DNA of 64,000 nt from Streptomyces lydicus (lineage in GTDB: Bacteria; Actinomycetota; Actinomycetes; Streptomycetales; Streptomycetaceae). The notes under the pieces are model-generated. The model saw only the letters and a program-made list of their open reading frames with translations, ran no database searches and was not told the DNA's origin. Shown piece after piece: positions 30,873 to 33,084 of the stretch; the first letter of the stretch is position 1; each line of letters opens with the position of its first letter. The translations under genes and the position numbers were made by a program. Location: the NCBI RefSeq assembly GCF_000717345.1, contig NZ_JNZA01000033.1, positions 1 to 64,000 of the forward strand, written 5' to 3'.

Positions 30873-31682
30873 GTGCACCGACTGATGCACCGCCACCTCG
30901 GCAAGCTCGTGGCGGGCGCCGCGCTGGCCCTGACCGGCACCGCCGCGATGGCCGCGATCACCTTGCCCGCGGGCGCCGGCGCCACCGGCCCCGCGGGCGG
31001 CCGGCCCGCCGCGGCCGGCGCCTCCGCGGCGGGCCGCGACCCCGGGCAGCCGCCGCCCGCCGTCGTCGAGAAGGCCCGGGCCCAGGGGGCGCGCGGCCGG
31101 GGGCGGGACCCGCTCACCGACGACGAGCTGCGCCGCGCCCGGGACCTGGCGCTGCCGCGCGCCCCGCGCGCCGCCGCCCGGGACGTCACCGGCAGACCCG
31201 GGCCCGAGCCGCTCACCACCGATCTGGCCGAACCCGACCCGTCGGAGGCAGGGTCGGCCGAACCGCCGCGCCGGGCCGTCGTCTCCTTCTACGACTACCG
31301 CGGCGACGGCTACGTCCGTACGACGGTCAACCTCACCACCTCGAAGGTGGAGGCCACGGATGTCCAGCACGGCGTCCAGCCGCCGCCGGGCCACGACGAG
31401 GCCGTCGAGGCCGCCCGGCTGCTGATCGCCGCGCCGCTCGGCGCCGGGCTGCGGCAGGACTACCGGGACGCCACCGGCCGCGACCTCACCGGGCCCGAAC
31501 CCCTCACCGTCACCGGCTTCGTCTACCGGGGCCGCGCGGAAGGCGCCGTGCCGGGCGCCCTCGCCGCCTGCGGGGAGCACCGCTGCGTCCGCCTCTTCAC
31601 CCAGGTCACCGGCGGCCGCTGGATCGACACCCGCCGCTTCGTCATCGACCTCAGCGCGCGCACCGTCTCCCGACTGGGCTGA
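30873..31682 (+). CDS. Secreted protein resembling copper amine oxidase N2/N3 domains
   Basis: A 269-residue protein with a signal peptide (hydrophobic residues 10-30) and an Ala/Gly-rich linker. GTG 30873 has a strong CAGGGGGGAA upstream. Residues 79-165 (PLTDDELRRA... VSFYDYRGDG... TVNLTTSKVEA) and 167-265 (GVQPPPGHDEAVEAARLLIA... RCVRLFTQVTGG... FVIDLSARTV) follow the plan of the two small alpha/beta domains that precede the catalytic domain in copper amine oxidases. The next gene encodes that catalytic domain 46 bp downstream. The relationship is my inference from pattern, not a search result. No catalytic residues are expected in this half. Confidence 0.65.
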   Translation: MHRLMHRHLGKLVAGAALALTGTAAMAAITLPAGAGATGPAGGRPAAAGASAAGRDPGQPPPAVVEKARAQGARGRGRDPLTDDELRRARDLALPRAPRAAARDVTGRPGPEPLTTDLAEPDPSEAGSAEPPRRAVVSFYDYRGDGYVRTTVNLTTSKVEATDVQHGVQPPPGHDEAVEAARLLIAAPLGAGLRQDYRDATGRDLTGPEPLTVTGFVYRGRAEGAVPGALAACGEHRCVRLFTQVTGGRWIDTRRFVIDLSARTVSRLG

Positions 31683-31728
31683 CGCGCGCCCGCCCCCACC
31701 GCCCCTCCTTCGACCGGGAGCCGCCCCG

Positions 31729-33084
31729 ATGTCCGCACCACGCACCACCGGCGCCCTTCCCCGCCGGGGAAAGACCCCCCGCCGCCCGTACCGCCGCGCC
31801 GCAGCCCTCCTCGCCGTCCCGCTGCTGCTCGCCGCCGGCGCCCTGGCCACCGGTCCGGCCGCCCAGGCCGCCCCGGAAACCACCGCCGCGCCCGCCCCGG
31901 CACCCGCCTGCAGCCCCGCCTACCGCGTCACCCAGACGCTCGACGGCGGCACCGTCTGGCGGATGTGCTGGCACTACGAGGGCAACGCCGGCCTCGTCCT
32001 GGACGACGTCTCGTACCAGCCCAAGGGCGAACGCGTTCCCATCAAGGTGCTCACCACCGCCAAGCTCGCCCAGATCCACGTCCCCTACGACGACGGCAGG
32101 ACCGAGTACGACGACCTCACCGGCCAGGGCTTCGCCCAGGGCCTCCAGCGGCTCGACCCCGCCGAATGCCCTGGCGGCACCATCAAGACCGTCCGGGTGC
32201 CCGGCGCCTGGGACTCCGCGCACCCCGACGTCAGCGGCCTGTGCGCGACCACCCGTGCCCGCGGCCACGCCTACCGGATGGGCGCGTTCCCCGGCAGCGA
32301 CACCAAGACCTACCAGCTCCAGGGCAAGGACCTGCTGCTCTACACCGTCAACAAGGTGGGCTGGTACGAATACATCACCGAATGGCGGTTCTCCGGCGAC
32401 GGCACCATGACCTTCCAGGTCGGCGCCACCGGCACCGTCTCGCCCAACGACTACGACGCCGGCGACGGCCGCGGCATGCCACTCGGCAAGGGGGCCAAGG
32501 ACTACGCGACCAGCCACAGCCACAACGTCTTCTGGCGGCTGAACTTCGGCCTGGACGGCTCGTCCGCCAACAAGTTCGAGCAGTTCGACTCCACCCTCAC
32601 CACCCGCTCCGGCGGTGGCACCCCGACCATCCGCACCACCCGCACCCCGGTCACCAAGGAACTGGCCGGAGACGCCGGGCCGATGCGCTGGTGGCGGGTG
32701 GTGAGCGCCACCGGCAAGAACAGGGACGGGCATCCGCGCTCGTACGAGATCGTTCCCGGCCACACCAGCAAGTACGGCGGCCGCGGCTACACCAAGCACG
32801 ACGTGTATGTCACCGAGTACAACAAGTGCGAGCAGTTCGCCAGTAACAACCTGGCCAACTGCGGTGCGGGCACCGGCAGAAGCGTCGACCGCTGGGTCAA
32901 CGGCCAGCCGCTCAAACACCCCATCGCGTGGGTCAACATCGGGTTCCACCACATCGCCAGGGACGAGGACCAGGAGCCGATGCCCGTCCACTGGCAGGGC
33001 TTCCAACTGGTGCCGCGCGACGTCACGGCTATGAATCCGCTCACTCCGCCCGCGCTGACCGGTCACAACGGGCACTATGAATAA
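31729..33084 (+). CDS. Secreted copper amine oxidase, catalytic domain only
   Basis: A 451-residue protein with a signal peptide (residues 18-48, ending near AQAAP). It matches the C-terminal catalytic domain of copper amine oxidases, which use copper and topaquinone made from a tyrosine. Candidate copper ligands are His263, His265 (TSHSHNVFWRLNFGLDG) and His408 (GFHHIARDEDQEPMPV). The candidate base is Asp129, 84 residues before Tyr213, the same gap as Asp298-TPQ382 in the Arthrobacter enzyme. The cofactor motif reads Trp212-Tyr213-Glu214 instead of Asn-Tyr-Asp/Glu. The usual N-terminal domains are absent and appear to be encoded upstream. Confidence 0.85.
   Translation: MSAPRTTGALPRRGKTPRRPYRRAAALLAVPLLLAAGALATGPAAQAAPETTAAPAPAPACSPAYRVTQTLDGGTVWRMCWHYEGNAGLVLDDVSYQPKGERVPIKVLTTAKLAQIHVPYDDGRTEYDDLTGQGFAQGLQRLDPAECPGGTIKTVRVPGAWDSAHPDVSGLCATTRARGHAYRMGAFPGSDTKTYQLQGKDLLLYTVNKVGWYEYITEWRFSGDGTMTFQVGATGTVSPNDYDAGDGRGMPLGKGAKDYATSHSHNVFWRLNFGLDGSSANKFEQFDSTLTTRSGGGTPTIRTTRTPVTKELAGDAGPMRWWRVVSATGKNRDGHPRSYEIVPGHTSKYGGRGYTKHDVYVTEYNKCEQFASNNLANCGAGTGRSVDRWVNGQPLKHPIAWVNIGFHHIARDEDQEPMPVHWQGFQLVPRDVTAMNPLTPPALTGHNGHYE

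Follow-up and report, generated by a model that had tools for sequence, protein, structure and literature searches.

Can a copper amine oxidase, normally one protein, be divided between two chains that leave the cell separately? This question is raised by two adjoining genes in a window of 64,000 nucleotides of Streptomyces lydicus DNA (contig NZ_JNZA01000033.1), the window being the whole stretch that was analysed. An earlier note had described them as two genes of 269 and 451 residues, 46 bp apart, encoding the parts of such an oxidase, and the open reading frames (ORFs) on the + strand agree with it (30873–31682, 269 aa; 31729–33084, 451 aa). We consider it likely that the two genes encode the D2–D3 and D4 parts of a single two-chain enzyme of the copper amine oxidase type, whose chains would be exported separately and assemble outside the membrane. 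The interpretation of the note is supported overall, through a D2–D3-like fold and the predicted arrangement of a joined chain; export and assembly stay predictions. The spread of the pair, a Trp in place of Asn at the cofactor, wall-anchor-like tails and a DUF305 neighbour are observations that go beyond it.

Division of the oxidase domains between two genes

In one-chain oxidases, the domains are covered by the models PF02727 or PF21994 (N2, or D2), PF02728 (N3, or D3) and PF01179 (the catalytic D4). Protein 2 matches PF01179 and no other model (1.1e-35, profile positions 22–405 of 407) and aligns with residues ~240 to 628 of AGAO, the Arthrobacter enzyme, which confirms the reading of the second gene as the catalytic domain only. 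For protein 1, the structure model and its structural comparison gave a fold like D2–D3 rather than an unrelated one, and its profile aligns with the N-terminal half of the one-chain oxidases (profile–profile E 2e-11), as had been expected for the two small N-terminal domains. The same profile also matches within the ORF of the catalytic domain in 4 of 15 one-chain loci. The proposed comparison of protein 1 with amine oxidase models had a divided outcome, as no Pfam model was matched, while the NCBIfam primary-amine oxidase model was matched weakly over its N-terminal end (positions 17–119 of 648, E 0.038). By fold and profile–profile comparison, and without a Pfam match, the D2 and D3 domains are present as protein 1. 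The two cysteines of its CGxHRC motif (C-x4-C) are kept in all 47 protein 1/protein 2 pairs compared.

When both proteins of a relative were joined by a linker (P1-linker-P2), AlphaFold2 predicted the oxidase arrangement with protein 1 in the D2–D3 place, at a predicted template modelling (pTM) score of 0.83. A lack of contact between the chains, named in the earlier note as a counter-result, was thus not what the model predicted, as far as the joined chain of this one relative goes. The summed length, which the note had equated with one oxidase plus an extra signal peptide, is 720 residues, against 638–646 for the Arthrobacter enzyme chains. The features of the locus are as follows.

30873–31682, + strand: gene 1, predicted exported D2–D3 (N2–N3) chain of the split oxidase, 269 aa, GTG start
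30873–30971 (end approximate), + strand: basic and hydrophobic N-terminal segment of protein 1, predicted signal peptide or membrane anchor (Kyte–Doolittle scan)
31092–31391 (boundary approximate), + strand: predicted D2 (N2) domain, protein 1 residues ~74–173 (model, VIA-align range)
31392–31679, + strand: predicted D3 (N3) domain, protein 1 residues ~174–269, with the conserved CGxHRC cysteine pair (model)
31683–31728, + strand: intergenic gap of 46 bp; gene 2 is in a different frame from gene 1
31729–33084, + strand: gene 2, catalytic D4 chain (PF01179), 451 aa, ATG start
31729–31872 (end approximate), + strand: predicted signal peptide of protein 2, hydrophobic core at residues 26–40, then AQA
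32086–32088, + strand: Y120, equivalent of AGAO Tyr284 (alignment)
32113–32115, + strand: D129, predicted catalytic base, AGAO Asp298 (alignment)
32362–32364, + strand: W212, replacing Asn (AGAO Asn381) before the cofactor tyrosine (alignment)
32365–32367, + strand: Y213, predicted topaquinone precursor, AGAO residue 382 (alignment)
32515–32523, + strand: H263 and H265 (HSH), first two predicted copper ligands (alignment)
32950–32952, + strand: H408, third predicted copper ligand (alignment)

The pair is flanked on the 5' side by a CBM48/alpha-amylase gene on the opposite strand and on the 3' side by a HEPN_SAV2148/DUF5919 gene. Gene 2 is the only PF01179 match in the window's own genome.

In the enzyme that we propose, both chains would be exported separately and then likely fold together outside the membrane, protein 1 packing on protein 2 as D2–D3 pack on D4 in one-chain enzymes. 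Going by the known copper amine oxidases, copper would be bound in protein 2 by H263, H265 and H408, Y213 would be converted to topaquinone with copper and oxygen, and, with D129 as base, a primary amine would be oxidised to an aldehyde with release of ammonia and hydrogen peroxide. By the same analogy, such pairs would be expected to form a dimer.

The altered cofactor site

To compare the active site, 50 split-type rows were aligned with 15 one-chain rows and 3 outlying ones; Y120, D129, Y213, H263, H265 and H408 correspond there to AGAO Tyr284, Asp298, residue 382 (the cofactor), His431, His433 and His592. All six are invariant in the 240 catalytic relatives listed (the best 120 of 749 and the best 120 of 522 matches), and so are C61, C80, C147 and C172. 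The residue before the cofactor tyrosine, where the alignment is gap-free, is Trp in 48 and Tyr in 2 of the 50 split rows, against Asn in 15/15 one-chain rows, so that protein 2, with W212, lacks the N-Y-D/E motif. The residue that follows the tyrosine in the split rows is mostly Glu, otherwise Thr, Asp, His or Tyr, and, in the alignment, the segment before the base is five residues shorter than in one-chain enzymes.

According to PMC9491219, no residue of AGAO lies nearer to the cofactor ring than Asn381; with Ala in its place, the cofactor formed 180-fold more slowly and kcat fell 160-fold, with the quinone still being formed. A bulky Trp that has become fixed in a lineage suggests that the ring is held differently or that the chemistry itself differs. 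On this replacement, and on the variable residue after the tyrosine, rests the reading of the pair as an oxidase-like complex that is not an amine oxidase, i.e., a protein that binds or senses copper, or an oxidase that uses a different cofactor or class of substrate. We regard it as unlikely, since the invariance of ligands, tyrosine, base and Y120 is hard to explain without the usual chemistry, and the Ala mutant of AGAO still made its quinone. The pair most likely works like a copper amine oxidase.

Recurrence, export and neighbourhood of the pair

At E ≤ 0.001, there are 749 relatives of protein 2 and 499 of protein 1. Among the matches listed for both proteins, the named relatives are all Streptomyces except one labelled Actinobacteria bacterium, and the nearest catalytic protein listed, at 97% identity, itself bears the name Streptomyces lydicus. 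When one genome per species was scanned, 514 stretches proved to encode a catalytic relative, of which the best 80 are all from Streptomyces. Named catalytic relatives from other genera (in the best 120 of 522 matches) come from Microbacterium, Agromyces, Herbiconiux, Nocardioides, Aeromicrobium, Mumia, Jiangella, Georgenia, Motilibacter, Actinopolymorpha and Micromonospora.

Near-complete catalytic genes, 56 in all, are carried by 52 of 121 Streptomyces genomes, and protein 1 lies directly upstream on the same strand in 55 of them. The exception is found in G104, where a second copy of the pair is broken and its protein 1 pieces are ~112 kb away (L057 and L058, at 10.77 and 10.88 Mb); this genome also has an intact pair. 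Among 394 genomes of the class, 23 from other genera have a strong catalytic match, with protein 1 directly upstream in 22. Order and strand are thus kept in 77 of 79 cases, a recurrence far beyond chance. These counts omit fragmentary catalytic matches (G102, G030, G001) and a short catalytic piece (G104); short pieces of protein 1 that lack a catalytic partner gene, in G063 (58 positions, 71 bits) and, weakly, in G009, G026, G029 and G078; second protein 1 pieces in G099, G104 and G119; and, in other genera, catalytic matches below 250 bits (one-chain enzymes and short pieces) and protein 1 matches within one-chain ORFs (G411, G496) or as a short piece (G175).

In the tree, all 50 catalytic domains of the split type group together (93/96; shown as an open fork), and a long branch separates them from the 15 one-chain enzymes. 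The distances of protein 1 and protein 2 are correlated at 0.95 over 47 pairs and at 0.89 over 20 main-clade Streptomyces pairs, with a maximum of 0.20 in 1000 permutations; this shows joint inheritance, not contact. Three Streptomyces genomes hold second, divergent pairs (L052, L053, L054) that are mutual nearest relatives for both proteins; their next nearest relatives are from family f17 for protein 2 and from the main Streptomyces group for protein 1.

The outlying case among the other genera, G296, has a lone catalytic relative that is a predicted lipoprotein without protein 1 (L046:1950-3413:-, with a lipobox-like start); the gene adjoins that of a large protein with a weak LPXTG-anchor match. 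Such a lone chain favours a reading in which protein 2 makes up the whole enzyme, with protein 1 as a membrane-held helper rather than a structural subunit, either a folding or copper-loading factor or an inhibitor, that happens to retain the D2–D3 fold. The N-terminus of protein 1 also has a bearing on this reading. Hydrophobic segments occur at the start of both proteins (the best 15-residue Kyte–Doolittle mean is 1.74 in protein 1 and 2.39 in protein 2, where AQA comes next), so that this part of the claim that each has its own signal peptide stands, export itself being a prediction from sequence. In relatives of protein 2, AxA follows the segment in 119/119 and 113/120 members of two sets; the figure for relatives of protein 1 is only 88/120, so that in some species this protein may serve as a membrane anchor. 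Nevertheless, a helper role appears quite improbable to us, given that the pair is kept in 22/23 and 55/56 cases and that protein 1 takes the D2–D3 place in the joined chain. A one-chain gene broken by frameshift or assembly error, which the combined length and the 46 bp spacing might evoke, is refuted by the recurrence of the two-gene layout in many genomes, by the signal-like start of gene 2 itself and by the absence of a fused form among the 240 listed catalytic relatives (≤67 residues precede the domain, and none of these matches the protein 1 profile).

Many relatives of protein 1 carry the NCBI name “Tat pathway signal sequence domain protein”. The twin-arginine translocation (Tat) motif is [ST]RRx[FLVIM]; in its strict form it precedes the hydrophobic core in 0/120 protein 1 relatives, any RR being present in 30/120, and the label is probably wrong. 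Outside Streptomyces, the catalytic chain often bears a Thr/Pro-rich linker, an immunoglobulin (Ig)-like repeat (PF16640) or a sorting-signal-like tail, and LxTG or LxxTG with a hydrophobic stretch ends 43/120 catalytic relatives (best 120 of 522 matches).

A DUF305 gene was sought beside the pair in 18 of the 23 other-genus genomes and in 5 of the 52 pair-bearing Streptomyces genomes. It lies directly 3' on the same strand in 10 of the 18 (G195, G181, G402, G352, G434, G257, G305, G441, G471 and G218; loci L162, L164, L167, L169, L172, L173, L178 and L179, G181:C3:61648-62112 and G441:C1:413616-414041). By our own estimate, placement by chance is very unlikely, because these ten genomes hold only 2–5 DUF305 genes each. 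No DUF305 gene directly follows the pair in the other 8 genomes, five of them of family f17, and the Streptomyces lydicus window has none. DUF305 is the domain of CopM, described in PMC4335983 as a copper-binding periplasmic and extracellular protein. By analogy, the DUF305 protein may deliver copper to the oxidase.

Against a two-chain oxidase weigh the absence of any match of protein 1 in the Pfam search or in a sequence search of the PDB, and the root-mean-square deviations (rmsd) of ~11–13 Å for some Escherichia coli oxidase rows compared with protein 1 alone and of 10.6–10.8 Å for the longer, forced Foldseek alignment to AGAO entries (target TM-score 0.71–0.73). The joined chain is an artificial device in place of a two-chain prediction with an error map between the chains, and the oxidases on which AlphaFold2 was trained may have influenced its model. 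The Trp at a site where Ala was so costly to AGAO, the G296 lipoprotein without protein 1 and the fact that none of the 5 Streptomyces genomes checked has a DUF305 gene next to the pair count on the same side. A broader proposal, which we think less likely than not, is an overlooked lineage of two-chain copper quinoenzymes that assemble extracellularly: D2–D3 would be a separate exported subunit completing the enzyme only once outside the membrane, a Trp in place of Asn would hold or chemically alter the cofactor tyrosine and so give new quinone chemistry, and DUF305 proteins would load the copper where the catalytic chain is wall-anchored.

Comparison with known systems

The solved copper amine oxidases found as PDB matches are single chains. 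Here, the cut lies between D3 and D4 and persists over several actinobacterial families; therefore, the role of D2–D3 becomes testable by adding or omitting protein 1, a protein so far labelled by the doubtful Tat signal and now assigned a role. How the residue next to the cofactor governs the formation and flipping of the cofactor has so far been studied with Asn mutants; the fixed Trp offers a natural experiment on this question. No description of a two-gene copper amine oxidase was found in the titles and abstract openings of the open-licence PMC literature. A graspetide gene-cluster group co-occurs with a copper amine oxidase, according to a recent paper (PMC13097080).

The nearest tree group to the split clade, on a long branch, consists of the L074-type proteins (552–611 aa, three genomes of family f17). 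They share the Trp before the tyrosine and the HxH motif, but are longer single chains that reach PF01179 at 25 bits (cut-off 27) and match no N2 or N3 model; they are perhaps another oxidase-like family with a Trp at this position. L074:1511-3217:-, L075:729-2561:+ and L076:2031-3686:- carry GWYRY and HRH motifs, the score of 25 bits applying to the two that were scanned.

The DUF305 neighbour resembles CopM of Synechocystis (PMC4335983) in its domain, its N-terminal hydrophobic segment and its HH-containing motifs; unlike CopM, which serves copper resistance, its gene follows that of a predicted copper enzyme. Escherichia coli TynA and the Hansenula polymorpha amine oxidase share the predicted fold of D2–D3 and of the whole modelled pair, but are single chains (~620–800 residues in the solved structures). 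With AGAO and the one-chain bacterial oxidases, the pair has in common the order D2, D3, D4, the copper ligands, the cofactor tyrosine, the base, the Tyr284 equivalent and, in the model, the overall arrangement. It differs from them in its two genes and chains, each with a hydrophobic N-terminal segment, in the Trp before the cofactor tyrosine, in the shorter loop before the base and in its separate tree group. Because the three domains are spread over two ORFs instead of one polypeptide and no Asn precedes the cofactor, the pair is not an ordinary member of the copper amine oxidase family; it is a two-chain variant of it.
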